DNA from: Prevotellaceae bacterium | GTDB lineage: Bacteria > Bacteroidota > Bacteroidia > Bacteroidales > UBA932 | DNA: 32,767 nt | Reading direction: 5' to 3' | Assembly: GCA_031288865.1 (NCBI GenBank) | Contig: JAITQN010000065.1 | Span: 1-32,767 of the forward strand | Part shown: piece by piece, positions 4,394 through 32,767 of the stretch | Numbering within the stretch: position 1 is the first letter of the stretch | Layout of the letters: the number at the start of each line of letters is the position of its first letter | The notes under the pieces: model-generated | What the model saw: only the letters and a program-made list of their open reading frames with translations | Databases searched by the model: none | Told to the model about the DNA's origin: nothing | Program-made: the position numbers and the translations under genes

Positions 4394-7159
4394 TTATTTT
4401 ACCTCGAAAGCATAATTGCCTGAACCTATTTCGAGTACAGTTTTCCCCCCGGGTGTACTTATGTTTTTTATGCCGGTTATTTTGTCAATGGTTGTTCCGC
4501 TTTCCGTTATTTCTTTGCCTGCCGCATCCGGAAAATAGACCGTAGCCGTGCAGTTGGCCGGTATCGTTATATGCCAGGTAAATTTATCTTCCGATTTTTG
4601 CCAGTGACTTTCAATTTTGCCGCGCACTGACCGGTAAGAAGCCTTCACGTAGTCCAGTTCGTCAACCAGGTGGGGGCGCATCGTGATTCTTTCAAAACCT
4701 GTAGAGGCGTTGCATGCAACGCCTCTACAAGCTGCATTCTGAATGCCGGCGAGGTATTCGTAGCACCACACCAGCAGGTCTCCGAGCAACATCACGTGGT
4801 TGTGCGAATTCATGGCCGGGTCGGCGGTATTACCATTCCAAAGCTCCCAAATGGTGGTAGCGCCATTTTCTACCATATACCCCCAACTCGGGTAATCGCG
4901 ATTGGTGGCGATCCTATAGGCAAGGTCGGCGCGGCCGTAGTCCGACAGCCCGCGCATCAGCCACTGGATACCCACCAGCCCGGTGCTGACATGCCCGTTA
5001 AACTCGGTCAGGGTTTTTTCCTCAATGTTGGCGAACACCCTGTTTTCGTAGCCCTCGGGAACAAGGCCGTAGCACAGCGACAGCAGGTTGGCGGTAACGG
5101 TATTATTGCTGTATTGCGCTGTTTTCGCATTGAAAAATTTGCGATTGTAGGCGTCTTTGATAGCCGCCGCTTCTTCGGCAAACGCTTTGGCATCGTCGGG
5201 CTTATCCTGCAATTCGGCAAAGCGCTGCAAAAGGTATAGCATCCGATAATAAAATGAGGTGCCCAGCAGCGTTCCGTCGGTGCGGCGGGCAGGGTCTTCC
5301 GAGTGGATTAACTCCGGCCGCTCGGGGGGCATGCACCAGTCGCCGTATGTGTCTTTCGTCATGATATTCGCCATCATGTATTTGTTGCGCATGTACGACA
5401 GCCATTTTTTCATAGATGCGTAATGCTTCGTCAGTGGCTCCCTGTCGCCGTATTGCTCATACAGCATATTGGCAATAATGAGGTAAGCGCCCGGCCACGT
5501 CATATTGTCGCTGTAGAATGTCCAATAGGCCGGCGCCACATCGGGGATGCTGCCGTCTTCGCGTTGCGACTGCTCAATATCGTCCAGCCACTTGGCATAC
5601 AGGTTGTGGTTGTTGAAGACAAAACTTTCGCCATGCGAACCTACGGCGCGATCGCCCAACCAGCCCATGCGCTCGTCGCGCTGCGGACAGTCGGTTGGCA
5701 TGCCGCGGTAGTTCCCCCGGATGCCCCAGTACGCATTTTTGTATATTTGGTTAATGGTTTCGTTCGATGTTTCAAACGTGCCGGTGGTTTCCATTTCGTC
5801 GTAGAGCACGCGCCCTTCAAACTGCTCGAGCGCCGGTGTTCCGGGGAAACCGGTAATTTCCACATAGCGGAAGCCGTGATAGGTGAACGAGGGTTCAAAC
5901 GTTTCCACAGCGCCGCCTTTCAGGACGTAGGTGTCCGTGACCTCGGCACCGCGAATGTTGGCTAAGTAAATAGAGCCGTCGGCGCTCACGGTTTCGGAAA
6001 AGCGAAGCTTTACCCGGTCGCCCCTGTTCCCTTTCACTTTCATGTGCACCCAGCCCACCATATTCTGTCCCATGTCGATCACATACACGCCGTTATCCAA
6101 CGATTTTATCGCCACCGGTTTTACAGTTTCCATCACTTTAATATTCTGATTGGTTTGCGCCTCCAGCTTGCCTTCGGGCGCTGCCACCAATTCCGCTGGA
6201 AGCCAGCCGGCGTCGTTAAAATCTGCGGCGTTCCAGCCCGGCATCTCTTTTTTGGCGTCATATTCTTCGCCGTCAAACTCGTTATTGGCGCGAATGGGGC
6301 CTTCGGCGGTGACCTTCCACGTGTCGTCGCTCACCACCGTCTGATGGCTGCCGTCGGCATATTCCAGCTCTAATTGCAGCAGCATTTTAGGGAACCCGAA
6401 ATGCCTGACACTCGGAATACCCGCTTCGTCGATGCGCATGGAAAAGAAGCGTCCGTTGCCCAGGGTGGTAGCCAGCGCATTTTTGCCCTTGGTGATATTG
6501 TCCGTCACGTCAAACGTGTTGTATTTTACCACCTGGGTGTAGTCTGTGGGTGTGGGCGACAATTCCTGCTCGCCGATTTTCCCGCCGTTGACATATAGTT
6601 TGTAAAGCCCCAGCCCGGAGAGGTAGAGCGTGGCTTTTACCGGTTTTTGCGGTGTTTCAAATTCCTTACGGAAATATCGCGCCGCTAAGCGGGTTTTTCC
6701 TTCCAGCATATCGCCGGGGAAGGCGCGGTCAAGGCCTGTCCACCGGGCTTGCCAATCGGCCGCTTCCAGCAGTCCCATACTCCATACGGCCGGCTCGCTC
6801 CACGCCGAAACGCCCTGGTTGGTGGTTACGCCCACTTTCCAGTAGCACACAGCGCGGCTTTCGAGCGGTTTTCCCGCATACGGCACAAAAACCGAACGAT
6901 CGGAATCCACGGTTTGCGAATCCCATAAATCGCCCTCACCGGCATGCAATTTTTCCAACGACGAGGCCACCAGTATATGGTAAGCCGTTTGTTTGACGCC
7001 GCGCGCGCCGGCGGCGATTTCCCAACTCAGGTGCGGCGAAGGGCTGTCAAGACCCTGCGGGTTGACTAACCATTCGCAACGCAACCCATTTACTGTAACA
7101 CGATCGCCCTGGCAAGCGGCCAGCAGCACAACGCCCAAAAAAATCAAAACTCTTCTCAT
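4394..7159 (-). CDS. GH78 alpha-L-rhamnosidase, lipoprotein
   Basis: A 921-residue enzyme that should hydrolyse terminal alpha-L-rhamnose. It starts MRRVLIFLGVVLLAACQ, an SPII signal with lipobox LAAC, so it is membrane-anchored. The order is that of GH78: an N-terminal beta domain (GLRCEWLVNPQGLDSPSPHL), the Bac_rhamnosid_N domain (WTGLDRAF onwards), a fibronectin-like region (VFDMGQNM-type, here IDMGQNMVGWVHMKV), the (alpha/alpha)6 barrel with the catalytic motif DCPQRDERMGWLGD near residues 497-510, and a C-terminal beta domain. Ten residues, CRGVACNAST (about 811-820), interrupt the link between barrel and C-terminal domain; they are encoded by a 30-bp palindrome and are foreign to the family. 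The promoter/leader upstream matches that of the other large GH78 gene. The DoxX and Gfo/Idh genes follow. Confidence 0.92.
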   Translation of the reverse strand: MRRVLIFLGVVLLAACQGDRVTVNGLRCEWLVNPQGLDSPSPHLSWEIAAGARGVKQTAYHILVASSLEKLHAGEGDLWDSQTVDSDRSVFVPYAGKPLESRAVCYWKVGVTTNQGVSAWSEPAVWSMGLLEAADWQARWTGLDRAFPGDMLEGKTRLAARYFRKEFETPQKPVKATLYLSGLGLYKLYVNGGKIGEQELSPTPTDYTQVVKYNTFDVTDNITKGKNALATTLGNGRFFSMRIDEAGIPSVRHFGFPKMLLQLELEYADGSHQTVVSDDTWKVTAEGPIRANNEFDGEEYDAKKEMPGWNAADFNDAGWLPAELVAAPEGKLEAQTNQNIKVMETVKPVAIKSLDNGVYVIDMGQNMVGWVHMKVKGNRGDRVKLRFSETVSADGSIYLANIRGAEVTDTYVLKGGAVETFEPSFTYHGFRYVEITGFPGTPALEQFEGRVLYDEMETTGTFETSNETINQIYKNAYWGIRGNYRGMPTDCPQRDERMGWLGDRAVGSHGESFVFNNHNLYAKWLDDIEQSQREDGSIPDVAPAYWTFYSDNMTWPGAYLIIANMLYEQYGDREPLTKHYASMKKWLSYMRNKYMMANIMTKDTYGDWCMPPERPELIHSEDPARRTDGTLLGTSFYYRMLYLLQRFAELQDKPDDAKAFAEEAAAIKDAYNRKFFNAKTAQYSNNTVTANLLSLCYGLVPEGYENRVFANIEEKTLTEFNGHVSTGLVGIQWLMRGLSDYGRADLAYRIATNRDYPSWGYMVENGATTIWELWNGNTADPAMNSHNHVMLLGDLLVWCYEYLAGIQNAACRGVACNASTGFERITMRPHLVDELDYVKASYRSVRGKIESHWQKSEDKFTWHITIPANCTATVYFPDAAGKEITESGTTIDKITGIKNISTPGGKTVLEIGSGNYAFEVK
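4700..4729. repeat. 30-bp perfect palindrome inserted in frame in a GH78 gene
   Basis: The core is GTAGAGGCGTTGCA followed by its exact reverse complement, with one more matching base pair at each end. It lies inside the coding sequence and adds about ten residues at a domain junction where GH78 proteins usually run directly into GF-x-x-I-x-x-RP. It is the style of dispersed REP/MITE-like palindromes. No second copy was found in this window. Confidence 0.8.
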
Positions 7160-7290
7160 TATATTTTATATTAGCTAAAGACTCTGTTGATGTTATGTTT
7201 ACTATATCTTAAAGTTTGTGTCAAATGTATGTTATTAATATTGAAATACTATTTTGAATTCTGATTTAAGTATTTTGCATTTTGACACTC
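7160..7290 (-). promoter_or_regulatory. promoter and leader of the GH78-doxX-Gfo/Idh operon
   Basis: On the minus strand there is a -7 box TACATTTG (complement of 7222-7229) that fits the Bacteroidota TAnnTTTG consensus, leaving a leader of about 60 bases. Upstream of it is an inverted repeat AAATACT-N18-AGTATTT (7244-7250 and 7269-7275). The whole block aligns with 32244-32377 upstream of the other large GH78 gene, including the leader segment TATAGTAAAC and the bases around CTTTA-CTAA just before the start. This argues for a shared transcriptional regulator responding to rhamnose or rhamno-oligosaccharide. No clear -33 TTTG box was found. The remaining bases 7291-7351 hold only the displaced end of the DUF1080 gene. 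Confidence 0.65.
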
Positions 7291-7440
7291 ATTTGCACAT
7301 TTAGCGGATTTGTACGATAATGACAGATAAACTGACTTACGGCAAAAACCATGTCACGTCCTAAAAAAAGTTGACAGGTTAAATTTGTTTTTATTTGTTG
7401 ATTTTTATTCATTATTTATCGTATATTTTATTTATTTCTT

Positions 7441-8253
7441 CTATGCCGCTTGATGAACCGCTTCCGGCGTCTTAAAGTTCAACGCCCAATGCGGACGACG
7501 AGTATTATACAACTTGATAGCCTCCGCACAGGCCCGCCGGGCATGCTCATAATCTATAAACGTGGCATCCAGCAAGTATTCGTCTTTTAATATCCCATTC
7601 ACCCGCTCGGCCAACGCGTTCTCATAGCAATGGTTCTCCTCAGTCATGCTGATCCGCATCTTATGCTCCCGGAGCAGGGCGACATAATCGGCACAGCAGT
7701 ACTGAACACCCCTGTCGGAATGATGTACTAAACCCTCCGTGTCCCGACAGCCCGAAAGTGCGCCCTTGAGCGCCTGTAAACTGCCCTCTATACTCAAACT
7801 GCGTGAGAGCTGCCAACCTACGACTTTACGAGAGTAACGATCCGTCAAAAGAGATAAATAGCAAAAGCCCCCACGGGTGCGCACATAGGTGATATCCGAT
7901 ACCCACGCCTTATTCGGCTTATCAAGCCGCATATCCTTCAATAAGTTGCCATAACAGCGAAACCGATGATACGACGCCGTCGTACGCGTATAACTCCGCT
8001 TACGGGTTACTAATAAACCCGCTTCTCTGAGCAACCCGAAGAACTTGTCGCGACCCAAACCCAGCATAATCGCATGTAGCCGGTCACCATATACATGATA
8101 CAACTTCCGCCCTCCCAGCCGGGGCTGAAGCCGGCGCTCCTGTATAACCATATCTATGACTAATTCTTTGCCCATGTGCTGCTTTACCTCCTGCTTGTGA
8201 TGTTTGTAATATCCATTCCTGCTTATCTTAAAATATCTGCATAAACCGCTCAC
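7441..8253 (-). CDS. IS3-family transposase OrfB (DDE integrase core)
   Basis: A 270-residue catalytic subunit. An HTH_21-like N-terminus (CRYFKISRNGYYKHH) is followed by the rve integrase core with the DDE residues: D in WVSDITYV, D in HHSDRGVQY and E in ENALAERVNGILKDEY. The C-terminus has the usual NTRRPHWALNFKTPEAVH. The separate frame starts with GTG at 8253, overlapping the orfA stop (GTGA). The orfB frame is, however, open upstream to the A9 run at 8302-8310, and a -1 shift there would give LKKKHRVAAIARCCKERGW joined to SGLCRYF, the usual continuous OrfAB transposase. OrfAB is therefore probably the active product. Confidence 0.92.
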   Translation of the reverse strand: MSGLCRYFKISRNGYYKHHKQEVKQHMGKELVIDMVIQERRLQPRLGGRKLYHVYGDRLHAIMLGLGRDKFFGLLREAGLLVTRKRSYTRTTASYHRFRCYGNLLKDMRLDKPNKAWVSDITYVRTRGGFCYLSLLTDRYSRKVVGWQLSRSLSIEGSLQALKGALSGCRDTEGLVHHSDRGVQYCCADYVALLREHKMRISMTEENHCYENALAERVNGILKDEYLLDATFIDYEHARRACAEAIKLYNTRRPHWALNFKTPEAVHQAA

Positions 8254-8639
8254 GCGCCACCCTCGCTCCTTACAACATCGCGCAATGGCGGCAACGCGGT
8301 GTTTTTTTTTAATGCCGCCCGGTCAATGCCGGCTACCTCCAGCAACGTCTCTAATGCATCATACGCCAAGGACTTGTCGGCCAACGCAATCTTCAAGCGC
8401 TGAACCTCCTTCCGTAATGCTTTTAACTCATCTGTCTCGTGTCTCATCTTTACATATATTACTTCGTTTAACAACTGCGGATACCCATACTGCTTAACCC
8501 ACTTCTTTACCGTATCACCTCCGGTAATCCCATACTTCCGGCTAAGCTCCCGTATGCTTATTCCGCTCTTTAGTTCTTCTACTACTTTCTGCTTAAAGCA
8601 AAGACTATACCGATAGCTCTTTCTTGTACATTTTGTCAT
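8250..8639 (-). CDS. IS3-family OrfA (HTH DNA-binding protein)
   Basis: A protein of about 129 residues starting MTKCTRKSYRYSLCFKQKVV. The start was chosen for the strong GGAGGAG ribosome binding site directly upstream, although the frame is open to 8678. Residues 10-60 form the helix-turn-helix that recognises IS ends (SIRELSRKYGITGGDTVKKWVKQYG). A leucine-zipper-like coiled coil follows (LKALRKEVQRLKIALADKSLAYDAL). The run of nine A's near codon 110 (coding strand, complement of 8302-8310) is the expected slippery site for producing OrfAB. OrfA alone usually represses transposition. Confidence 0.9.
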   Translation of the reverse strand: MTKCTRKSYRYSLCFKQKVVEELKSGISIRELSRKYGITGGDTVKKWVKQYGYPQLLNEVIYVKMRHETDELKALRKEVQRLKIALADKSLAYDALETLLEVAGIDRAALKKNTALPPLRDVVRSEGGA

Positions 8640-8664
8640 CTCTCCTCCGCTTTTAGGTGTCAAC

Positions 8665-10078
8665 CTATACCAGGACATGACACCAAGCTCCTACTTCTTC
8701 GCTCCCAGCTCCTTTATCCTTTATGCTTCTAAATTCGAGTTCAGAGCCATGACCGAGAAATCCGATATGACCGCTTTTGTTGGACAGCCCCGGATGCTTC
8801 TGTTTGTCGATGGTAGCGGTGAAGTTGTTGCTTGCTTCGGCGATGTCTCCGTCGAGTATTACCGTGCCGTTGAGTGTTACTTTGATTTTGTTACCGTTGG
8901 CAACCACCTCCTGCGTGTTCCATTCGCCGGTAGGCTTCAGGTATCCGCGCTTTGCGGGGATTACGCCGTACACCGAGCCGTGGTACTGATATACCGCGAG
9001 GTCTTTATATACGTCCGCCTCGTTGTCGAGTATCTGCAACTCCATGCCGAAGTAAGCAGCGCCGCCATCAAGCGGAGTGCGGATGCCGAGGCCGTTGTTT
9101 GCCGCAGACGTCAGCTTAAACTCAAAGCGCAGGATGAAGTCGGCATACTCCTTTTCGGTGTAGAGGTTGCCGTACCCGCCGCTGGAGGGGATGCACGCAA
9201 TCGCCCCGCTGCGGGCAACGTAGTCCTTGAGGTTACCCACCCAGCCGGTCATGTCTACGCCGTTGAACAGCGGCACAAAGCCTTCGGCTTTTTCAGCGGA
9301 CGACACCTCGTAGGGATTCGGACGGAGTGTTTCGCGAATGTAAATATCACGGTATTCCACGCGTGTGCCGTGCGCTTGCAGCTCAAGCTGCTCTTTGGGG
9401 AAAATCGGCAGCGACCTGTCCCAGTAGTTTTCGAGGATAACGTTGTCGGTTACTAATTGCCCGTTGAGGTAGACGGTCACCCTGTTTCCAACCATTTTTA
9501 TGTAGAACGAGTTCCACTCGTTCACCGCGTTATCGGCAACCAGCAGCGGTTTGGATTCGTTCTTTTGGTTGTTGTACAGGCCGCCCGAACCGACCTGCGC
9601 TCCGACCGATACGCGCGAAGTGTCCCATATCTGCACCTGCGGCGTTCCGCGAAGGTAAACTCCGGCATCGCCTTCCGGCGTGATTTTCCAGTCGACGTAG
9701 ATCTCAACGTCGGCGTAGTCTTTTACCGTGCAGAGGTTGTCGTAGCCCTTGCCGTCAAACACCAGCAACCCGTTTTCGGCGCTCCAGTCGCGGCGCATAA
9801 TTTCATCCGCCGCCTTTTGCTTTGCCGTCATTTTGCTGCGCTTAATCGGGCCTTCCACCAAGCCTTTCCACCCCGTCAGGTCTTTTCCGTTAAAGAGGGA
9901 TACAAAACCTTCGTCCTTCGGCAGCAACGACAGATGCTTTTGGATTTCCTGCTTTTGGTACTCCGCCTCGGGGTCTTTGTTTACGGCGATGGCCTTGCTG
10001 AGCAACGCCGAAACCTCGCTGCCGTAGTAGGCGGGGTTGGCTATGGCTATCCGGCGGACGGCCTGCACCGCCGCCGTC
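8665..10078 (-). pseudogene. Double-DUF1080 (3-keto-glycoside hydrolase-like) gene, 5' truncated and 3' altered
   Basis: The segment encodes a short helical stretch resembling the end of a HEAT-repeat region (AAVQAVRRIAIANPAYYG), then two DUF1080 domains: the first begins FVSLFNGKDLTGWKG, the second FVPLFNGVDMTGWVG. DUF1080 (PF06439) includes enzymes that cleave 3-keto-glycosides made by Gfo/Idh partners. There is no native start or signal peptide; the frame emerges from the middle of a Gfo/Idh gene at a deletion junction near 10066-10078. At the other end a 7-bp tandem duplication changes the expected ending RSIKELGAKK-stop into RSIKDKGAGSEEVGAW, and the IS3 element then supplies the final codons and stop. 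Both domains look otherwise intact, but expression and export are doubtful. A chimera created by assembly is the alternative. Confidence 0.75.
8711..8724. repeat. 7-bp tandem duplication that shifts the DUF1080 reading frame
   Basis: CCTTTAT occurs twice in a row (ATAAAGG twice on the coding strand). Removing one unit restores the frame to EFRSIKELGAKK-stop, which resembles the usual DUF1080 C-terminus. The duplication therefore looks like a recent mutation that preceded, or is independent of, the IS insertion 29 bases away. Confidence 0.75.
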
Positions 10079-10822
10079 GTAATCCCAGTAGCTGCGGAAC
10101 GTACCGTGCACGCGATGGGAATTGTAGGGCTTGAAAGGTACAGGCCCCAGCCACATGTCGTAGTCGAGCTCTGCGGGGACAGGCTCAACGGCAAGCCCCG
10201 TTTTTCCTACCCAGTAAAATTTCCAGTCGAACCCCATAGCCGAGTTGATGGTAACCTTCAGGGGCCACCCCAGCAGCCCGCTGTCCACCAATTTTTTTAT
10301 CGGCTTAACGGTCGTTCCCAAGCCGTAGAAGTTGTCGTGGAAACGAAACCACGTGTTTAACCGGAAAATTCGCCCATGACGCGCAACGGCCTCCTTTATT
10401 TTGATACCTTCGCCGATAGTCCGCGTCATAGGCTTTTCGCACCAGATATCTTTTCCGGCTTTAGCCGCATCGACCGCCATTTTCCCGTGCCAATGCGGCG
10501 GCGTGGCAATGTGCACGACGTCGATGGAAGGATCGGCAAGTATTTCACGGTAATCATGGTAAACCTTCACGCCGGAAGGGCACTGCGCAAGGGCTAACTC
10601 CAGATGCTTTTTATCAACATCGCAGATAGCCGTCAAGCGCGAGCCCGGGTACCCGATATGTACCCGTCCCATATTGCCAACGCCAATGATGGCTTTTGTC
10701 AGCTCGTCGCTCGGTGCAAGGAAGCTGCCTCCTAACACCTTGCGCGGAACAATGGTAAACGCGGTGACCGTGATAGCCGCCGTTTTCAAAAATCCGCGCC
10801 TGCTTTGCTTAATATCACTCAT
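10067..10822 (-). pseudogene. Tat-exported Gfo/Idh/MocA oxidoreductase, C-terminal domain deleted
   Basis: About 250 residues of a normal exported Gfo/Idh enzyme are present. The Tat signal is SRRGFLKTAAITVTAF, followed by a Rossmann motif IIGVGNMGRVHIG, ATPPHWHGKMAVDAAKAGKDIW and the signature CEKPMTRT. The sequence then reaches YWDYDGGG, where intact homologues continue with the rest of the substrate-binding domain. Here the frame instead enters the DUF1080 gene out of frame and stops at 9890 after about 60 unrelated residues. The break lies in GGCGGCGGT (about 10066-10078). A deletion has therefore removed roughly the last 200 residues of this enzyme together with the 5' part of the DUF1080 gene. 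The truncated product probably cannot fold into an active enzyme. Confidence 0.75.
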
Positions 10823-12753: not shown

Positions 12754-14025
12754 TTATTTTTTGGTAAACAGAATCGTTATGTCTCCCGGTGAAAGTATCT
12801 GTTCTTCCACCACTTTAATTACTTCTCCCGCTTTGTTCACCATTCTCAAATCGGCATTTCCCTTTACACGAACTGTGATGTCGCTGTTGATGTCGTGGTT
12901 CACAATGACAACAAACCGGTCTTTACCTTTTTCGAGCATTGAAACCAAAGCGCCCGGATCGGATATTTCGAGCGATTTCACCTGTTTGGGCAACAGCTCC
13001 GTATTCAAGCTGCTACATCCCCGCGGCACGTTTCCTGTATGGGCAGTCCAGCGCACTTTGCTGTTGAGAAATACTTTTGAAAGGGCTTTGATTTCTTTGT
13101 TCATCGCTTGTACGGTATAATAGATCGGCGATTTGGTGCCGTCGATGCGTACAGGAGCGTTGTCGTCCGCACCTTCACCCCACATCGGGTCGCAGCAGGG
13201 GTCAAGCCAGGTGAAATACTGGATGCACTGCGCACCGTATGCCAGGTCACTGTAAACCTGTAAACGCAGGTCGGCAAGCGTAGGGACAGGATAATCCCAG
13301 TGGGCGGTAGAAAGTGCAAACGCCCAGAAAGGTTTGCCCGCCCTGCGGCTTTCGTCGGCAATAATTTCGAGATTTTCGTAATATTCCGGCCTTATGTAAC
13401 GTTTTTTCTCTCCGTCCGTCAGGATACAGTAATGGTCGAAAGAAATCACCGGAACAGGTATTTCGTCGATGTATTTCCGGACGTGCCTGCGGTAAGCATC
13501 CTCTCCGGAGAAGCCCAGCGCCTGTTCGGGTGCATAGTTCGGGAAAAGGTTGATATAACAGGGATGAATCGAATCGATCGCCTGTATTTTCCTGACAATA
13601 GCCGCCAGATTTTCAAAATCGCTTGCCGACGGCTCGTCACGAATGGTATAGCCCGCTATGGCAGGGTGTTCTTTGAGGCGTTTCATTTCTTCGGGCGTGA
13701 AAAAATTCACCACCTCCCAGTTGATCATGATTTTCATTCCGACAGACTGTGCCTTGTCAAGCAGCGTGAAATAAGGTCCCGCTTCCGAACCGGACCAGCC
13801 GCCGTCCGGAACATGCGGGAGGTTGATGGTAAAGCCCGCGTCCGCCATTTCGCGGTAATATACCGTATCGGCATACGGTCCCGATGCAGGAAGTCCGTGC
13901 CATCCGAGAATGGGAATCTGTTGATTTGAATCGCCTGAAATCCCATTTACTGTAACACGCTCGCCTTGGCAAGCGGATAGCAGCACAACGTTCAAAAAGA
14001 TCAATAATTTTTTCATACGCTGCAT
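12754..14025 (-). CDS. TIM-barrel glycoside hydrolase (GH42-like), lipoprotein
   Basis: A protein of about 423 residues whose barrel starts near PILGWHGLPASGPYADTVYYREM and contains GYTIRDEPSASDF, where the glutamate is a good candidate for the strand-4 acid/base. It continues with WAFALSTAHWDYPVPT and YGAQCIQYFTWLDPCCDP and ends in a small beta domain. Distant similarity to beta-galactosidase clan A enzymes is likely, but I cannot name the family. The first 25 codons (MKKLLIFLNVVLLSACQ, then GERVTVNG) are nearly the same DNA as the start of the GH78 gene at 7159, so the signal peptide seems borrowed. The start at 14025 overlaps the previous stop (TAATG); ATG 14016 is an equally good choice. 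Confidence 0.7.
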   Translation of the reverse strand: MQRMKKLLIFLNVVLLSACQGERVTVNGISGDSNQQIPILGWHGLPASGPYADTVYYREMADAGFTINLPHVPDGGWSGSEAGPYFTLLDKAQSVGMKIMINWEVVNFFTPEEMKRLKEHPAIAGYTIRDEPSASDFENLAAIVRKIQAIDSIHPCYINLFPNYAPEQALGFSGEDAYRRHVRKYIDEIPVPVISFDHYCILTDGEKKRYIRPEYYENLEIIADESRRAGKPFWAFALSTAHWDYPVPTLADLRLQVYSDLAYGAQCIQYFTWLDPCCDPMWGEGADDNAPVRIDGTKSPIYYTVQAMNKEIKALSKVFLNSKVRWTAHTGNVPRGCSSLNTELLPKQVKSLEISDPGALVSMLEKGKDRFVVIVNHDINSDITVRVKGNADLRMVNKAGEVIKVVEEQILSPGDITILFTKK

Positions 14026-14732
14026 TACCAACTGCTCCATGAGCCGCTCGATTCGGTTTCACTTCCACTGCTAAGCGTGATCGACAGCTCTTCATTTTGG
14101 ATCGTTGTACTTCTGTATTTACCGTGTGCCGCATTAGTAAAGAAGGCTGTAACAGCATGTCCGTATGTGGCATTGGTGGCGGTGTTTCCTGCCTTATTGC
14201 CTCCGTCGCCGTTCTCGCCGTAGATGATGGCGCCGGAATGGATTTCAACACCACCGTTTTGCCAGATATAGACCGCGCCGCCGCCTTCATCCGCAGCGGT
14301 ACTGTGGTTGTCATACATTTCCCCGCCGTTCATGGTAAAGCGAGCGCCTGCGCCTAAGATAAGTACGCCGCCGCCATATTGCGCCGAATTATCGTATATC
14401 TTACCGCCATCCATCTGAAAAAGGTCGCGGCTTTCCGCAACGAATGAATTGTAACCATGGTCATTAAAGCCGATAAAACTCATGTACCACACATCGGGAT
14501 TATCCGGCGTCTGATACACGCACGGCACGTCGTAATTGTAAAATCCTTCCGCTCCAGGAATCCTGTAATCCGAAGGAATCACGGCCTCGCGGTGATACGT
14601 CCATCCCCGGTATGGGGCGCTCCATTGACGCATCGTTCCGGCGTCTATCGTCTCCGTCCGTTCTTTTTTCTGTTGGACATCTGCGTGGCCGAAGACAATC
14701 CACGCGATACACATTGCAATAAAACATTTCAT
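14025..14732 (-). CDS. Chimera: beta-propeller hydrolase N-terminus fused to beta-helix repeats
   Basis: A protein of about 235 residues with a signal peptide (MKCFIAMCIAWIVFGHA). Residues to about 100 (MRQWSAPYRGWTYHREAVI, DVPCVYQTPDNPDVWYMSF, NSFVAESRDL) look like the first blade of a GH43/GH32-like five-bladed beta-propeller enzyme. From about residue 105 the sequence turns into parallel beta-helix repeats (MDGGKIYDNSAQYGGGVLI, then FTMNGGEMYDNHSTAADEG) with a serine-rich end, typical of surface adhesin-like proteins. The remaining propeller blades and most of the helix repeats are absent, so this is probably the in-frame scar of a deletion between two genes rather than a functional enzyme. 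Its stop overlaps the next start. The first ATG is at 14732. Confidence 0.65.
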   Translation of the reverse strand: MKCFIAMCIAWIVFGHADVQQKKERTETIDAGTMRQWSAPYRGWTYHREAVIPSDYRIPGAEGFYNYDVPCVYQTPDNPDVWYMSFIGFNDHGYNSFVAESRDLFQMDGGKIYDNSAQYGGGVLILGAGARFTMNGGEMYDNHSTAADEGGGAVYIWQNGGVEIHSGAIIYGENGDGGNKAGNTATNATYGHAVTAFFTNAAHGKYRSTTIQNEELSITLSSGSETESSGSWSSW

Positions 14733-20232: not shown

Positions 20233-21795
20233 TCATAATCCCACTACCGTAACTCTTTCCTCATTTTCATCCCATTTGATACGCTCCTCCCAGGCGGCTT
20301 TTTTGCTTTCGCTGCGGCGGTCGAAGATGAGCAAGTAGAGCGGCGCGCCGGGCGCTTTCCTGTCCTGATAGCGTTTTATCTGTTGCAGGCCTTCCTCCAG
20401 CACGCGTTCATAACTTTTGCTGTCGCGCAAAACTTTTATTTCCATGATACATTTATAGCCATGATATTCTACGTACAAGTCCATTTTCCCACTTCCGGCG
20501 GCTACTTCCCGGTCTATCCGTCCGCCTCCGTTCAATATCCGCTGCAAAAATGCCAGTAACAACAAATGCGGGAACGCTTCCGTGTAATCCGATTTTGCTT
20601 CCCACAGTTCGGAATTGTCCCGCCAGAACTGCTGAAATTCCTGCAGCAGGCTGTCCATGTCTAAGCTGCCGTCCGGTTTCTGCCATTTGAAGTTGGAGGG
20701 CGGCGGCATCATAATCTGCATGCTCGAATTTACCACCCGCGTAAGAATTTCCGTATAAATGGGATTGGATATGCTCAGTCCTTTATTGGCGTCAAACGTT
20801 AGCAGTCCCAAATCCATGGCCTGCTGCACGCCCGGACTGTCGAGGTTCAGGTCCATGTTCGTTTCGCCCGAAATGACGGTCTCCACAACAGGCTTTACCG
20901 CTGCATCCTGCATCCGGTAAACCAGCGAATCCAGATGTGTCTCGCGCGCCTCGATCATCTGCCGGCGCGCCTCCACTATATGCTTTAATTCGACGGTTTC
21001 CGTGCTCCTGTAGTCCAAAACCCTTGTGGTCGCCCGGTCAAACAGGTTGTTGACAATCCACGGCTGCCCCTGCGACTGTTCCCAAACATAATCCAATGCT
21101 TCCTGCGTAATTCTTTGTCCTGTTTCGGCTGTCCGTTGGGCAAAAAGGCGAGTTACGTCTTCTTCCGAGAAATTTTTTAACAGGATAGAATCCTTCTTGA
21201 TGTTAAACGGCGAGCCGGGATTCGGCGCCACGCCGTCCTTGCTTTGCGTAATGTAGTCTTTCAAGTCGCGCATGCCGACAATGGCCACGGATATGGGGAA
21301 TTTTCCCACGCCGCGGGAGGCAAAACCGCCACGCAACTGCCGCAGAAAACTGATCAGGGCATCACCGGTCAAGACATCCACTTCGTCGAAAAATACGATT
21401 AGAGGCTTCGGCGCAACAAGTTTTGCCCAGTTCCCCATGATATTGCTGAGCATAAAACCTGGATCCGCCGTGTCTGCTTGAGGAACAGAAAGGCTGAAAT
21501 CCCCGGCATACTTTCGTATTGATTCGCGAATCAATGGGATTGCACGTTCCACATCAGTCATCCCCTGTGTTATTTCCACGCTCACGTAACAGGCCACATA
21601 TTTACTTGTAGCGTTGAGTTCGTGCATCCAGTTTATCAGGAAGGTTGTTTTCCCTGTCTGACGCGGCGCATAAAGCACCCAATAGAGCCGTTCGTCAAGA
21701 TAACGGCTTAAATTCGCCCCAACCAAACGCTCTTCGGGGGGCAACATATAATGTTCATCCGGGCGGCAGGGACCTGTAGTGTTAAACGATTTCAT
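20233..21795 (-). CDS. AAA-family ATPase with C-terminal PD-(D/E)XK nuclease-like domain
   Basis: A 520-residue protein of a family seen in many Bacteroidota and other phyla, often without a known role. The N-terminus MKSFNTTGPCRPDEHYMLPP is followed by a Walker A motif (APRQTGKTTF, lysine at residue 49) and Walker B (LIVFFDEVDVL), with a sensor-like VAIVGMRDLKDYI. The last 100 residues have the PD-(D/E)XK pattern: GKMDLYVEYHGYKCIMEIKVL with D, E and K in the expected places, then QQIKRYQDRK. It may bind or cut DNA using ATP; a defence or selfish-element role is possible but unproven. The start at 21795 follows a TATCTTTG -7 box. It is flanked by inverted repeats and unrelated to its neighbours. 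Confidence 0.82.
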   Translation of the reverse strand: MKSFNTTGPCRPDEHYMLPPEERLVGANLSRYLDERLYWVLYAPRQTGKTTFLINWMHELNATSKYVACYVSVEITQGMTDVERAIPLIRESIRKYAGDFSLSVPQADTADPGFMLSNIMGNWAKLVAPKPLIVFFDEVDVLTGDALISFLRQLRGGFASRGVGKFPISVAIVGMRDLKDYITQSKDGVAPNPGSPFNIKKDSILLKNFSEEDVTRLFAQRTAETGQRITQEALDYVWEQSQGQPWIVNNLFDRATTRVLDYRSTETVELKHIVEARRQMIEARETHLDSLVYRMQDAAVKPVVETVISGETNMDLNLDSPGVQQAMDLGLLTFDANKGLSISNPIYTEILTRVVNSSMQIMMPPPSNFKWQKPDGSLDMDSLLQEFQQFWRDNSELWEAKSDYTEAFPHLLLLAFLQRILNGGGRIDREVAAGSGKMDLYVEYHGYKCIMEIKVLRDSKSYERVLEEGLQQIKRYQDRKAPGAPLYLLIFDRRSESKKAAWEERIKWDENEERVTVVGL

Positions 21796-21819
21796 AATTT
21801 TTTGCCAATGAATTTCCCG

Positions 21820-21827
21820 CAAAGATA
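21820..21827 (-). promoter_or_regulatory. -7 promoter box of the ATPase gene
   Basis: TATCTTTG on the minus strand matches the Bacteroidota TAnnTTTG box and lies 24 bases before the ATG. No good -33 TTTG element was found at the usual spacing. Confidence 0.55.
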
Positions 21828-21893
21828 CGAAACAATTCTTAATTAAATTAAGCGTGTAAACCAATACGTCAAAGAACCATTTTTATGTAGGAT

Positions 21894-24402: not shown

Positions 24403-26337
24403 CTAGTTCCATCCCAGGTTTTGCACGAGTTTCCTGTTCCGCTGTATTTCGTTGTCGCTGATGGGCGAGAAATAATCTTTCAAGCCGAAACGCTGTTCGT
24501 GGATGGTGGTGGGCCTGTAATAATACGCCGCATCGCCTCTCGAGATGTCCCAGCCCTGTACGGGCGCATTCAGGATTTCGGGCGCGGTTTTCCACCGGCG
24601 CAGGTCCCAGTAGCGTTTTCCTTCGAAGGCGAGTTCAATGGTGCGTTCCTGATGAATGATCTGCCGCAGTCCGTCCTGCGTTTTGTATTTCCCCGGATTG
24701 GTGGAATACGTGTCCCATGCTGTGGCTACATCTTGAAGTTCCGCCCGGTCGCGTATGAGGTTGAGATAGGCTATGGCTTTGTTGCGGGCTTCCTGCGTGT
24801 CGTCTGCCTCGTTGAGGGCTTCGGCGCAGTACAGCATCAATTCGGGCAGCCGCATCAGCGGCCAGATATAGCTTTCTACAGCCATTTGCTCGGAGGCGAT
24901 CCCCTGCGTTTGGAAATGGATGTATTTCTTGGGATAATAGCCGGTAGGACATCCGCCGGATTCGTTGATGCTGAAAGGGCGGCCTCCCCGGTTTTCGACA
25001 TACAGCAGGTTGGAGGGGATGGCGTCGTTTTCAACGCCGTGTCCGTAATAGACGCCCCGGTCGAAAGCCATCCATGCATAATAGCGCGGTTCGCGGTCGA
25101 AATTCATGCGTGCGGTGGCCTGTCCTTCCCTGATGTAGCGGTTTTCGGCTGCCGTGCCTGTGCGGAGGTCGTAGCGGTTGCCGTATTGCCAGTATTTGTC
25201 CTCCTTAATGGGCACGCCGTTGGCGGAATAAAACTGTTCCACCATGCTCAGCGGCACCCCAAACACGCAATAGTTCGCCGACCATTCATACTGTCCCAGG
25301 CTTTTTGCCGTTCTGACTTGCAGGTCGCGTACCCACGCTCCGGTGTACGCCCAGATGACTTCGCTGCTCCATCTTTCGCAGAAAGCCTGCCGCAGCGTCA
25401 TTTGCCGCATTATTTCCGGCGACAGGCTGTAGTTGGGGTGACCGGGGTAGTGGTAAAGGTGCATGCCCTGTCCTGTGGTGCAGAAGTCGTACGCCTCTTC
25501 GCAGGCCTGCGCCGCGCGGCTCCATTTGGCGAGTTTTTTGGATTCGTCCTGCGAAAAGAGTTGGAGGCCGTCACTGTTTTTCAGGGACGCCTGTTCCGCG
25601 TTGCAGTTAAAAAGCGGGCTGGCGGCCGTCACCAGCGCCTGCGCCTTGATGGACATGGCTATGGCTTTGTTGATACGCCCGTAGTCCAGCGTGCTCGCAA
25701 TCTGATCGGGCAGATCCTCCATGGCCTCGTCGAGCAGCTGTACGATATACTCGAAGACCGCATCTACCGACTCGCGCGGCACCTGCACTTCTTCTACGCC
25801 GGCGGAAACCGGCAGGTTTTCCCTGATAATGGGAATGGGGCCGTACATGCGCAGCAGGTAGAAATGATACCATGCCTTCAACACTTTGTTCTCGGCTATC
25901 CAGAGGTCTCTTTCCCAATCGGGAAGATAGGACACCTTGTAGGTTTCCAGCCCTGCGATCATGGTGTTGCAGTTGTTAATGGCTGCATAGATATGCGTCC
26001 AACGGTTGAAGAGGTTGACATACGGCGACTGCCGTCCTTCGGCAATCCGGATTCCTTCGGTGTTCACTACCTGATACTGCGGTTCGCTGTAAGTCCAGAG
26101 TTCGCCGCATCCGGTTACTTCCAGCCCATACAGGGGATCCACCCGCATGGATTCAAGGAAATAATAATTGGAATACAGGTAGCGCAACGCATTTTCGCGC
26201 GTAGTAAATACATTTTCTATCCGTCCCGTTCCTTCGGGCACCACGTCGAGATACTCGTTGCAGGCCCCCAGGAAGAGCAGGCAGGAGAGCGCCAAAACGC
26301 AAACGGTTTTCTTGTATAATTTATTTTTGTAACACAT
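24403..26337 (-). CDS. susD: SusD/RagB-family outer membrane lipoprotein
   Basis: A 644-residue glycan-capture lipoprotein that forms the lid of the SusC channel. The signal ends in FLGACNEYLDVVPEG, the typical lipobox followed by YLD-x-x-P. The N-terminal SusD-like domain (VFTTRENALRYLYSNYYFLE, WTHIYAAINNCNTMI) is followed by TPR-like helices (KAWYHFYLLRMYGPIPII) and the C-terminal RagB domain (LPELMLYCAEALNEADD, IIHQERTIELAFEGKRYWDL). All hallmark segments are present and the length is usual. It is 25 bases downstream of susC, in an AT-rich gap with TTAATTG repeats. Its substrate is inferred from the flanking rhamnosidase. Confidence 0.96.
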   Translation of the reverse strand: MCYKNKLYKKTVCVLALSCLLFLGACNEYLDVVPEGTGRIENVFTTRENALRYLYSNYYFLESMRVDPLYGLEVTGCGELWTYSEPQYQVVNTEGIRIAEGRQSPYVNLFNRWTHIYAAINNCNTMIAGLETYKVSYLPDWERDLWIAENKVLKAWYHFYLLRMYGPIPIIRENLPVSAGVEEVQVPRESVDAVFEYIVQLLDEAMEDLPDQIASTLDYGRINKAIAMSIKAQALVTAASPLFNCNAEQASLKNSDGLQLFSQDESKKLAKWSRAAQACEEAYDFCTTGQGMHLYHYPGHPNYSLSPEIMRQMTLRQAFCERWSSEVIWAYTGAWVRDLQVRTAKSLGQYEWSANYCVFGVPLSMVEQFYSANGVPIKEDKYWQYGNRYDLRTGTAAENRYIREGQATARMNFDREPRYYAWMAFDRGVYYGHGVENDAIPSNLLYVENRGGRPFSINESGGCPTGYYPKKYIHFQTQGIASEQMAVESYIWPLMRLPELMLYCAEALNEADDTQEARNKAIAYLNLIRDRAELQDVATAWDTYSTNPGKYKTQDGLRQIIHQERTIELAFEGKRYWDLRRWKTAPEILNAPVQGWDISRGDAAYYYRPTTIHEQRFGLKDYFSPISDNEIQRNRKLVQNLGWN

Positions 26338-26362: not shown

Positions 26363-29300
26363 TTAATTGATTGTGAGGTTTACTCCCACATTAAGGACGC
26401 GCTGGATGGGATATCCCAAGCCATTCCCGGCCATTTCGACGTCCCAGAGCTTGAATTTACTGAACGTAAGCAAATTTGTTCCGCTGAAATAGATGCGGAG
26501 CTGGCTCAGGTGAAGCCGCGAGATGAGCTTTTTGGGCAGCGAATAGCCAATTTCTAAGGACTTCAGGCGCAGGAACGAGCCGTCGCGCATGAACCATGTA
26601 CTACTCACGAGGTTGTTTTCGTTGCGGTCGATGCTCAGCCGGGGCCAGAGTGCGTAGAGGTCGCGGTTGGCTTCGCTCCAATGGCTGTCGGCGTAAACTT
26701 GCAGCAGTTGCGTGTCGTTCACAAAAGGCACCGTATTACCGACGTCTGTACCGGTGTTGATCCAGAACGATTCGTTGGCGAGTCCCTGAAAAAATACCGA
26801 CAGGTCGAACCCTTTGTATCCTGTGGAGAAGCCGAAGCCATAAACGATTTCGGGGGTGGTGGGCAATCCGATGGGTACCATGTCGGCGGTAGTAATCACG
26901 CCGTCGCCGTTGACGTCGGAATATTTGATGTCCCCGCCGCCATAGAGGGCAGCGGTAATTTCCTGCCGCGGCGAGTTGGCGGCTTCGGCGTCGTCAATAA
27001 ACAGGCGTTCGGCGATGTAGCCCCATTGCTGGCTGATGGGTTTGCCTGCGCGAAGGCGCCAGCCTTCGCTGTAAAGCGGCTCTTCGTACACGTCGTAACG
27101 GCTGGTAGCGTAGGTGAAATTGGCGCGGGCGACCGTCCAAAAGTCCTTTGACCAGCTTTTCTGGTATTCCAGGCTGAGGTCAACGCCCCAACCGGAGGCC
27201 TCGCCCACATTGGCTTTTGCCACGTAGCTCAAGCCCATCGTGGTGGGCATATAGTTGCGGTCCATCAGGATATTGGTGCGTTTTTCACGAAAATATTCGG
27301 CAATCAGCGTGAGGTCGTTCCATAACCCGACTTCCAGCGCATAATTCTGCTTGCGGGAAATTTCCCAGGTGATGTCCGGGTTGGCGTCGCGCGTAAGGAT
27401 GATGCCGTCTTTGTGGTTGGTGAGGTCTCTTCCGAAAGTGAAACCCCTGCTGCCGCTGGTCATATCCATTTGCGAGATATAATAGAAGCGGTCGCTTGCA
27501 TCGCCGATCTGGTCGTTGCCCACTAATCCGTAGGAATAGCGCAGCTTCAGGAGATTTACCGTTTCTTTCAGCAGCGCCCAGAACGATTCGTTGGCGATGT
27601 TCCAAGCGATCCCCGCCGAAGGGAAAAACCCGAAGCGGTGCTTTTCGGCAAAGCGTTCCGAGCCGTTGTACCCGAAGTTAAATTCGAAGAAATAGCGGTT
27701 GGAGTAGCCGTATGTAAAGCGCCCCGACAGCCCGAGGTTGCGATAGGGCAGCGACTTTTCCAGCGTTCCTGCGGGCGCGTCGAGCGAACTGCGGAGGACG
27801 CCTACCAGCAAGCCGCTCACACTGTGGTTGCCGAAGGTGCGGCTGTAATTGGCCATTACTTCGGCATAGACGGTGGCGTTTACAGCCCTCTCCTCTTCGC
27901 TGTAGCCGAGCCAATCGGTACCATCGGCAGGATTGGTATTGGTCAGCCTGTATTCTCCGGTATTGTAATTGTAGCCGGACATTTCGTACCAGAAGGGGTT
28001 ATAAAAACGGTTTATGGAGAACTGCGATAGGCGCGTGGTGTTGAATATGCCGCGCAGGGAAAGCCCTTCGGTAACGAAGTCCAGCTTTTGATTCAGCTCC
28101 ACCTGCGCCAGCAGTTGCGAGCGGTCGCGTTCCCGATATCCCCGTATGGATTCAGCGTAAGGATTGTAATAGCGGTTTTCTTTGTTGCCGAACATGATAT
28201 GTTTGACGTCTTTCGTTTCTTCCGTCGCGGGGTAATAAGCGGGAAACAGCACAGGGTTGGAGCGGAGAATGTTCCTGAACATGTCGTCGCCCCCTGTGAG
28301 CGGCCCGCTGTAGTCGTCGAAAGTACCGCTAAGCCTGACGCTCATGTTGGTGGTTTTGGTGAGCCGCAGTTCGATGTTCGAGCGCACAGCATAATTGTTG
28401 TTGCTGATATTATTGTTAAAATTCTGCCGCTTGTCCACTTTCATGATGCCGTTGTCGTGGTTAAACCCTCCGGAGACATAATATCTTGCCACTTTTCCGC
28501 CGCCGCTGATGCTCAGGTTGTAGCGCTGGCTGGTGGCGTAGTCTTTGATGAGCATGTCCATCCAGTCGTTGGCGGGGTAGCGCAGCGGGTCGCGTCCCGA
28601 AATCGTGTTGTCGATCTTTTCCTGCGTGTAGATTTCCGATCCCCTTGGGTTCCGTGTCAGGACGGCTTCGTTGGCCAATTGCATGTAGGTGACGGGGTCA
28701 GCCAGCTCCACCATCCGCGTGGGCGAAGAAAAGGAATTTTCCACGCGCACCGAAACAGACATAGCGCCTTCGAACCCCTGCTTGGTGGTAACGAAGATCA
28801 CGCCATTGGCGCCCCGTGCACCGTAGAGGGCGGTAGCGGTGGCGTCCTTCATGATGGAGAAGCTGGCGATGTCGTCCGGTTGCAGGCGGGCGAGGTCGGT
28901 TTTGGTCAGTTCGATATTGTCGATCAGGATCAGCGGGTCGCGCCTTCCGCCGAAAGTGGTGACGCCCCGCACAAAGAAATCGACGGCGTCGTCCGCACCC
29001 GGCTCGCCGCTGCGCTGGTAGGCGATCACGCCTGCCATCTGCCCGGCAAAAGCGGTGGTAAGGTTGCTGTTCGGCACTTTCAGATCCGCCGGGCTAATGG
29101 TGGTAATGGAACCGATGACACTTTCTTTCTTTTGCTTGCCAAAGGCCACCAGCACCACTTCGTCCAGCTCGTTGGCTTTGGGTGCGAGCTGTATGGCCAG
29201 CTTTTTCTGTCCGCCCACCGTAATGGTTTGCGTTTCGTAGCCCAAAAAAGAGATTTCCAGCACGTCGGCCGGCTTCACGCTGATGGAGAAGCTGCCGTCG

Positions 29301-29464
29301 ATGTCGGTAGATACGCTGCGTGTGCTGCCCTGCACCTGCACGATAGCACCCGCCAATGGTTCACCGTTCTCATCGGTAATTGTACCGGTGATCACGTCCT
29401 GCGCCGCCAGTGTCCCCCACAGGGACACCAGCACGCCGCATAAAACAAGTTTAATTTTTTTCAT
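26363..29464 (-). CDS. susC: SusC/RagA-family TonB-dependent transporter
   Basis: A 1033-residue outer-membrane active transporter for oligosaccharides. After the signal peptide (KLVLCGVLVSLWGTLAAQ) comes the CarboxypepD_reg-like domain (VITGTITDENGEPLAGAIV, to about residue 110), then the plug with SusC signatures (FFVRGVTTFGGRRDPLILID and IMKDATATALYGARGANGVI), then the 22-strand barrel ending GVNLTIN. There is no N-terminal sigma-regulator (STN) domain, so transcription is probably not controlled through a linked anti-sigma factor. It is separated from the GH78 stop by only 7 bases, so it is co-transcribed with the enzyme. Confidence 0.97.
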   Translation of the reverse strand: MKKIKLVLCGVLVSLWGTLAAQDVITGTITDENGEPLAGAIVQVQGSTRSVSTDIDGSFSISVKPADVLEISFLGYETQTITVGGQKKLAIQLAPKANELDEVVLVAFGKQKKESVIGSITTISPADLKVPNSNLTTAFAGQMAGVIAYQRSGEPGADDAVDFFVRGVTTFGGRRDPLILIDNIELTKTDLARLQPDDIASFSIMKDATATALYGARGANGVIFVTTKQGFEGAMSVSVRVENSFSSPTRMVELADPVTYMQLANEAVLTRNPRGSEIYTQEKIDNTISGRDPLRYPANDWMDMLIKDYATSQRYNLSISGGGKVARYYVSGGFNHDNGIMKVDKRQNFNNNISNNNYAVRSNIELRLTKTTNMSVRLSGTFDDYSGPLTGGDDMFRNILRSNPVLFPAYYPATEETKDVKHIMFGNKENRYYNPYAESIRGYRERDRSQLLAQVELNQKLDFVTEGLSLRGIFNTTRLSQFSINRFYNPFWYEMSGYNYNTGEYRLTNTNPADGTDWLGYSEEERAVNATVYAEVMANYSRTFGNHSVSGLLVGVLRSSLDAPAGTLEKSLPYRNLGLSGRFTYGYSNRYFFEFNFGYNGSERFAEKHRFGFFPSAGIAWNIANESFWALLKETVNLLKLRYSYGLVGNDQIGDASDRFYYISQMDMTSGSRGFTFGRDLTNHKDGIILTRDANPDITWEISRKQNYALEVGLWNDLTLIAEYFREKRTNILMDRNYMPTTMGLSYVAKANVGEASGWGVDLSLEYQKSWSKDFWTVARANFTYATSRYDVYEEPLYSEGWRLRAGKPISQQWGYIAERLFIDDAEAANSPRQEITAALYGGGDIKYSDVNGDGVITTADMVPIGLPTTPEIVYGFGFSTGYKGFDLSVFFQGLANESFWINTGTDVGNTVPFVNDTQLLQVYADSHWSEANRDLYALWPRLSIDRNENNLVSSTWFMRDGSFLRLKSLEIGYSLPKKLISRLHLSQLRIYFSGTNLLTFSKFKLWDVEMAGNGLGYPIQRVLNVGVNLTIN

Positions 29465-32228: not shown

Positions 32229-32243
32229 GGGTTAGATTTTCAT

Positions 32244-32377
32244 AGTTTATTTTATGTTAGTTAAAGATTCGGTTGGTGTCAGGTTTACTATACCTTTAAA
32301 CTTGCATCAAATGTATGTTAATTATATTAAATACTATTTTGAATTTTGATTTAAGTATTTTAAATTTTGACATTAGT
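32244..32377 (-). promoter_or_regulatory. promoter and leader of the GH78-SusCD operon
   Basis: The block carries TACATTTG (complement of 32308-32315) as -7 box and the inverted repeat AAATACT-N18-AGTATTT (32329-32335 and 32354-32360). Spacing between repeat arms and relative position are the same as at 7160-7290, and the leader up to the ATG is also alike. The conserved distance suggests a regulator that binds directly upstream of RNA polymerase. The remaining gap to rhaD (32378-32530) is AT-rich; I see no gene or clear terminator in it. Confidence 0.65.
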
Positions 32378-32530
32378 CTGTATAGGGTAGTACGTTTGTA
32401 GTACTGCTCAATTCAAACACCATTTATTGCGCTCATTTTTAACAACTTTATAAATTCAGTGATTTAGTAGGTTTATTTATTTGCTTTATGATGATATTGT
32501 AATGTGTTAACATAAAATAAAATAAATAAA

Positions 32531-32767
32531 CTATGCCTTCCTGAGCGCTTCCATATCTTCCCGGCTTGTGCCTTCAGGGTCGAATCCCATGGCTTTGGCC
32601 GCGAGGTAAATTTGCGCCGACTTCGATAAGGTGTCAACCATGTCGAAGGCCTCCATGATATTTTCACTTACCGCACACACGCCGTGTTTTTCCCACATCA
32701 CCACATCATATTCTTTCAGCATCTCTACGGTTGCATCGGCCAATGCGACAGAGCCGGGCATCTTGTA
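32531..32767 (-). CDS. rhaD: rhamnulose-1-phosphate aldolase, C-terminus (partial)
   Basis: The last 78 residues of a class II aldolase run in from the right edge. PGSVALADATVEMLKEYDVVMWEKHGVCAV followed by MEAFDMVDTLSKSAQIYLAAKAMGFDPEG is typical of RhaD, which splits L-rhamnulose 1-phosphate into dihydroxyacetone phosphate and L-lactaldehyde in the cytoplasm. The active-site zinc histidines lie mostly outside the visible part, although the EKHG segment is present. Its presence directly upstream of the GH78-SusCD operon supports rhamnose as the sugar released by this locus. About 150 bases plus a promoter block separate the two, so they are probably separate transcripts. Confidence 0.88.
   Translation of the reverse strand, partial: YKMPGSVALADATVEMLKEYDVVMWEKHGVCAVSENIMEAFDMVDTLSKSAQIYLAAKAMGFDPEGTSREDMEALRKA

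Follow-up and report, generated by a model that had tools for sequence, protein, structure and literature searches.

Duplicated promoter block before two GH78 genes

The window, that is, the whole stretch of 32,767 nucleotides analysed here, contains two genes for GH78 alpha-L-rhamnosidases, each with all five GH78 Pfam domains present. One of them leads an operon with SusC and SusD and lies next to the end of rhaD at the edge of the contig; the other lies near 7.1 kb. The genes are as follows:

4394-7159, minus strand: GH78 alpha-L-rhamnosidase behind the 7.1-kb (probably fixed) copy of the block
24403-26337: SusD of the 32.2-kb GH78 operon
26363-29464: SusC of the 32.2-kb GH78 operon
29472-32228, minus strand: GH78 alpha-L-rhamnosidase leading the operon with SusC and SusD
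32531-32767, minus strand: rhaD, encoding rhamnulose-1-phosphate aldolase; 3' end only, truncated at the edge of the contig, with 79% identity to its counterpart in genome G002

All genomes concerned are fragmented MAGs, which we take to originate from insect guts, probably of termites and cockroaches.

Within the window, minus-strand positions 7287-7162 and 32372-32248 align over 126 bp with 85% identity (E about 1e-35), whereas the two GH78 proteins, whose genes lie at 7159 and 32228, are 33% identical and the nucleotide matches between the genes are short and scattered. The original prediction, that a near-duplicate stretch precedes two much more diverged coding sequences, is thus borne out, and TACATTTG (at 7229-7222 and 32315-32308), ATTTTGACA and TATAGTAAAC all stand where it had placed them. 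The similarity between the copies ends downstream at a 13-bp element, AACATAAAATAAA. Just upstream of other GH78 relatives, including those of Parabacteroides, no homologue of the promoter was found.

The inverted repeat AAATACT-N18-AGTATTT, which had been proposed as a conserved operator, fared differently. It is exact in both copies, and a genome search returned it exactly at these two sites only; with up to two mismatches it occurs three times in the window against 0.08 expected, but across the draft genome (1.63 Mb, 71% complete) the two-mismatch matches hardly exceed those of a reversed control pattern (18 versus 12). Its arms are not preserved in relatives, with 1-5 of 7 pairs kept outside the window, and it was therefore rejected as the operator.

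Probable RhaR-type operator and -7 box

The conserved feature is a direct repeat of 21 bp, TGTCAAAA-N13-AATCAAAA, with the -7 box TACATTTG after it:

7222-7229, minus strand: main -7 box TACATTTG, 7.1-kb copy
7244-7287, minus strand: putative operator, 7.1-kb copy
32308-32315, minus strand: main -7 box TACATTTG, 32.2-kb copy, 19 bp after the second half-site
32329-32372, minus strand: putative RhaR-type operator, 21-bp direct repeat, 32.2-kb copy (half-site 1 at 32370-32356, half-site 2 at 32349-32335)

In nine copies compared, the main -7 box is kept at 6/6 positions, as TACATTTG, TACGTTTG or TAATTTTG, and the two halves of the direct repeat agree with each other at 9-15 of their 15 positions. 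A promoter search of relatives gave further copies in two genomes of the same genus. For instance, in G002 the operator and -7 box lie between rhaK, with rhaI, rhaT and rhaD behind it, and rhaR, an AraC-family gene transcribed divergently; this copy has the operator and -7 box in common with the GH78 copies, but not the leader. Similarly, the rhamnose catabolic operon beside rhaR carries the operator in the rhaK-rhaR intergenic regions of both G002 and G145. A genus-wide operator scan allowing up to 3 mismatches gave four matches: one at rhaK, one at a susC locus and one at each of the two GH78 genes. With the promoter as query, bases 31-65, an AT-rich region, gave many weak family-wide matches. 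No operator was found in viral contigs. A search for rhaR found it neither in the 71%-complete genome to which the window belongs nor in G144, the source of locus L059, whose operator is the most diverged.

The search was extended to the order with a strict composite, defined as two TCAAAA half-sites 21 bp apart with TAnnTTTG at a fixed distance. It occurs in 9 of 29 Bacteroidales rhaR upstream regions and is absent from 20, and it was found in 0 of 200 shuffled sets and 0 times on the opposite strand. For the AraC-family RhaR of Bacteroides, a direct repeat of 21-bp periodicity has been reconstructed (PMC3870299), and the present operator resembles that published motif as it is described there. 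Since the composite recurs upstream of rhaR, is missing from the shuffled sets and comes with the same rhaK-rhaR arrangement, we conclude that the duplicated block consists of a predicted RhaR-type operator and its promoter, to which RhaR would bind. The earlier guess at an operator for a rhamnose regulator gains support accordingly from the same operator and -7 box at the G002 rhaK-rhaR region and from the restriction of the genus-wide matches to the four loci named above.

Inverted repeats around the 32.2-kb block

At 32.2 kb, the block lies between two inverted copies of the 13-bp element, which the original prediction had missed together with the occurrence of both orientations in relatives:

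32246-32258, minus strand: gene-proximal arm, core AACATAAAATAAA, where the leader ends immediately ahead of the GH78 start (the near-perfect arm spans 32243-32259)
32259-32508: presumed invertible segment of 250 bp, containing the leader, the promoter with its operator and the divergent promoter; its orientation differs among relatives
32365-32398, plus strand: putative divergent promoter TTTTGACA-N18-TACGTTTG, whose -33 box overlaps half-site 1
32509-32521, plus strand: distal arm, core AACATAAAATAAA, separated from the stop codon of rhaD by 9 bp; longest perfect inverted repeat equalled in 1/300 shuffles

Five copies have both ends assembled (the window at 32.2 kb, L059, L066, G145:C144 (L167) and G002:C134 (L025)), and both 13-bp arms are exact in 5/5 of them, although the copies are related by descent and the five repeat pairs do not amount to five independent events. 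The arms are 135-250 bp apart, and dinucleotide shuffles of each region gave a comparable repeat in at most 1/300; exact inverted repeats thus flank a promoter, as in an inverton. The core is short and AT-rich. The exact 14-mer TAACATAAAATAAA occurs 8 times in 11 genomes, 7 of them within this element, and the remaining 13-mer matches are unrelated single sites. By eye, the outer flanks seem to sort into CTATG on the gene side and AGGTTAAAAA on the far side, but by count the sorting into gene side and promoter side is not decisive. At 32531-32545, rhaD has a C-terminus (ALRKA) that falls short of the one in G002 and L066 (IAFNLPG/K) and terminates directly at the distal repeat, which suggests that a junction formed there.

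Orientation in relatives

The promoter points towards GH78 in the 32.2-kb copy of the window and in L059. In L066 the gene order rhaD...GH78 is the same as in the window, yet the promoter points away from GH78 and to an Abi_2 gene with a TATCTTTG box of its own. In G145 it points away from an operon of susC, susD, one SusE-like and one lyase-like gene and a pair of GH78 genes, where a repeat arm stands immediately before the susC start; in G002:C134 it points away from a different susC. In these three reversed copies the genes on the promoter side (Abi_2, RAYT) have their own TAnnTTTG boxes. The opposite orientations at the corresponding rhaD...GH78 locus of the window and L066 come from different species, not from one population.

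Because the promoter faces the rhamnosidase gene in two copies and points away from the rhamnosidase or susC gene in three, the 32.2-kb segment is probably an invertible promoter (inverton) that carries a rhamnose operator, and from the two orientations among relatives we infer that its inversion is reversible. In the six genomes searched, no recombinase linked to the element was found; tyrosine recombinases are present in all six. A serine recombinase was considered as the inverting enzyme and set aside, being found only in G144.

Several further observations concern the surroundings of the copies. A gene for a REP-associated tyrosine transposase lies just beyond the promoter-side repeat in L025 (1084-1677) and L167 (9186-9872); the two transposases are 66% identical, and the susC genes on the other side only 32%. 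In L026 (G002:C11), at 400-1200, a promoter copy adjoins a patchwork of short pieces of GH78 and susC genes; the locus is either decayed or rearranged. In G004, two contig ends (L029 1-265 and L030 4900-5082) have the promoter, the leader and about 70 further bases in common and then diverge, which could mean that the genome has two copies or that the assembly forks here. On one contig the promoter is directed at a glycosidase gene from its 3' side; on the other it precedes an AbiEi/AbiEii-like pair.

The 7.1-kb copy and its surroundings

At the 7.1-kb copy, no distal arm was found and the repeat core is degenerate:

7160-7172, minus strand: degenerate repeat core AATATAAAATATA, 2 changes
7352-8682, minus strand: IS3-family element with a 3-bp duplication (CCA) and ends that are related to each other (TGTCAyGTCCT...), lying 64 bp upstream of the operator of this copy (boundaries read from the sequence)

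Because the distal arm is missing and the core is mutated, the most plausible view of this copy is that it derives from the same promoter but is fixed and would be unable to flip. Nearby, at 8665-10822, the frame of a GFO/IDH/MocA oxidoreductase is broken at about 9.9-10.2 kb into two overlapping ORFs in different frames, and the 3-keto-disaccharide hydrolase ORF further downstream has a 3' end changed by the IS3 element (7352-8682). A GH42-like lipoprotein (12754-14040) starts with KKLLIFLNVVLLSACQGERVTVNGI, close to the RRVLIFLGVVLLAACQGDRVTVNGL of the GH78 protein at 4394-7159, with nearly the same signal peptide and first residues, as if its 5' end were chimeric and start regions had been swapped between genes of the cluster. 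In addition, a gene at 20233-21864, inside the rhamnosidase gene cluster, encodes a protein that has a PD-(D/E)XK nuclease domain (PF08011) at its C-terminus and, apparently, an ATPase part as well.

Proposed mechanism and alternative explanations

The reading that we favour, and hold to be reasonably probable as a whole, is that of a RhaR-activated promoter within a probable inverton at 32.2 kb and a fixed copy at 7.1 kb. The block would be a promoter activated by the AraC-family regulator RhaR through the 21-bp direct-repeat operator and the TACATTTG -7 box, in a layout resembling the rhaK side of the rhaR-rhaK intergenic region. Between rhaD and the GH78-SusC-SusD operon, it would form part of an inverton with 13-bp AACATAAAATAAA repeats, which a site-specific recombinase would exchange so that the 250-bp segment flips. 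In one orientation, rhamnose-bound RhaR would drive the GH78-SusC-SusD operon; in the other, the inducible promoter would point away, and the operon would be left with at most the divergent promoter.

The operator could belong to a hybrid two-component regulator (HTCS) in place of RhaR, as such regulators are the usual controllers of PULs. The motifs predicted for them in Bacteroides likewise consist of direct repeats, with a mean distance of 21 bp (PMC3878776). A nearly identical operator at rhaK adjoins rhaR, however, the composite is common to rhaR upstream regions across the order, and no HTCS gene was recognised within the window, which makes control by an HTCS quite improbable. The structured leader RNA that the original prediction had offered as an alternative is more doubtful still. 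Although the leader is conserved in several copies, the consensus of eight leaders contains 0 base pairs, L059 lacks about 20 nt of the leader, and rhaK carries the operator with no leader; the leader was therefore rejected as an RNA element. Its conservation needs no RNA function if it is part of the presumed inverting segment and ends at the recombination site. A small MITE-like mobile element, which would carry a promoter between 13-bp terminal inverted repeats and insert before genes, would account for the repeats, for several copies per genome, for the REP-associated transposase gene adjoining two of them and for the isolated copies near contig ends in G004. It is nonetheless improbable and was rejected: the flanks of the complete copies show no consistent target-site duplication, placement is biased to rhamnose genes, and there are just one to three copies per genome.

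The divergent promoter bears on a stronger rival. TTTTGACA is the complement of the first half-site, and its distance to TAnnTTTG is exactly 18 bp on the opposite strand of the 32.2-kb copy, L059, G145 and the rhaR side of the G002 rhaK-rhaR region. Because a divergent promoter with the same spacing is present, the element matches the two-way rhaR-rhaK promoter in its layout, and in several copies the reversed state may not be silent. It could be that no inversion takes place at all, one operator serving two divergent promoters, the orientations having arisen by ordinary rearrangement and AACATAAAATAAA being the translation-start context on each side; a repeat arm indeed lies at or near the susC start in G145 and G002:C134. 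However, the distal arm is exact in the window and L059 though no gene starts there, the promoter-side arm is exact in L066, G145 and C134 where the next gene is at least 100 bp away with its own -7 box, and the gap of only about 20 bp between operator and arm in L066 leaves no room for a divergent promoter towards GH78. We regard a two-way promoter without inversion as unlikely, although worth more weight than the three explanations above. The two ideas may also be combined, and we propose only tentatively that the inverton is a relocated copy of the two-way rhaR-rhaK promoter and that neither of its orientations is silent, the rhamnosidase PUL being driven by the RhaR-activated promoter in one and by the divergent promoter in the other. 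If it were both two-way and invertible, each flip within a clone would exchange inducible expression for expression that is basal and perhaps repressed by rhamnose, so that the stochastic choice would lie between modes of regulation instead of ON and OFF.

Sugar sensors are the usual account of how polysaccharide utilization loci are switched, and invertons are commonly portrayed as switches that vary the cell surface at random. In the favoured reading of a RhaR-activated promoter inside an inverton, an operator travelling with the segment would join both controls, so that only part of a clone would answer to rhamnose, and bet-hedging in nutrient use would become testable at one 250-bp segment in insect-gut Bacteroidales. 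In addition, a predicted operator with a promoter at a fixed distance is now available for RhaR-type regulators across Bacteroidales.

Comparison with known systems

As in the Bacteroides RhaR system, an AraC-type regulator adjoins rhaK and rhamnose genes would be activated (PMC3870299; PMC3878776). In B. thetaiotaomicron the reconstructed RhaR regulon is one catabolic operon (PMC3878776); here, by contrast, the operator also precedes rhamnosidase and SusC/D operons and lies inside a repeat-bracketed segment. In the open literature searched, no report of a catabolite-activator site inside an inverton and no inverton report for insect-gut Bacteroidales was found. It has been reported that SusC/D promoter inversions are established in Bacteroides and phase-variable in Bacteroides fragilis (PMC12632263, citing Nakayama-Imaohji 2009). 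As far as they are described in that account, the B. fragilis SusC/SusD promoters are similar to the present segment in that a promoter between inverted repeats precedes SusC/D-type genes and both orientations are found; they differ in that the repeat here is AACATAAAATAAA, the segment holds the putative operator of a sugar regulator, and inversion is deduced from relatives. The invertons of gut Bacteroidales are likewise short promoter segments with inverted repeats of at least 13 bp upstream of surface or uptake genes, but they are described as orientation switches (PMC11892184, PMC8748976), whereas the segment here contains a predicted catabolite-activator site. Both the inversion of SusC/D promoters and RhaR operators of 21 bp have precedents, and it is their combination that looks new.
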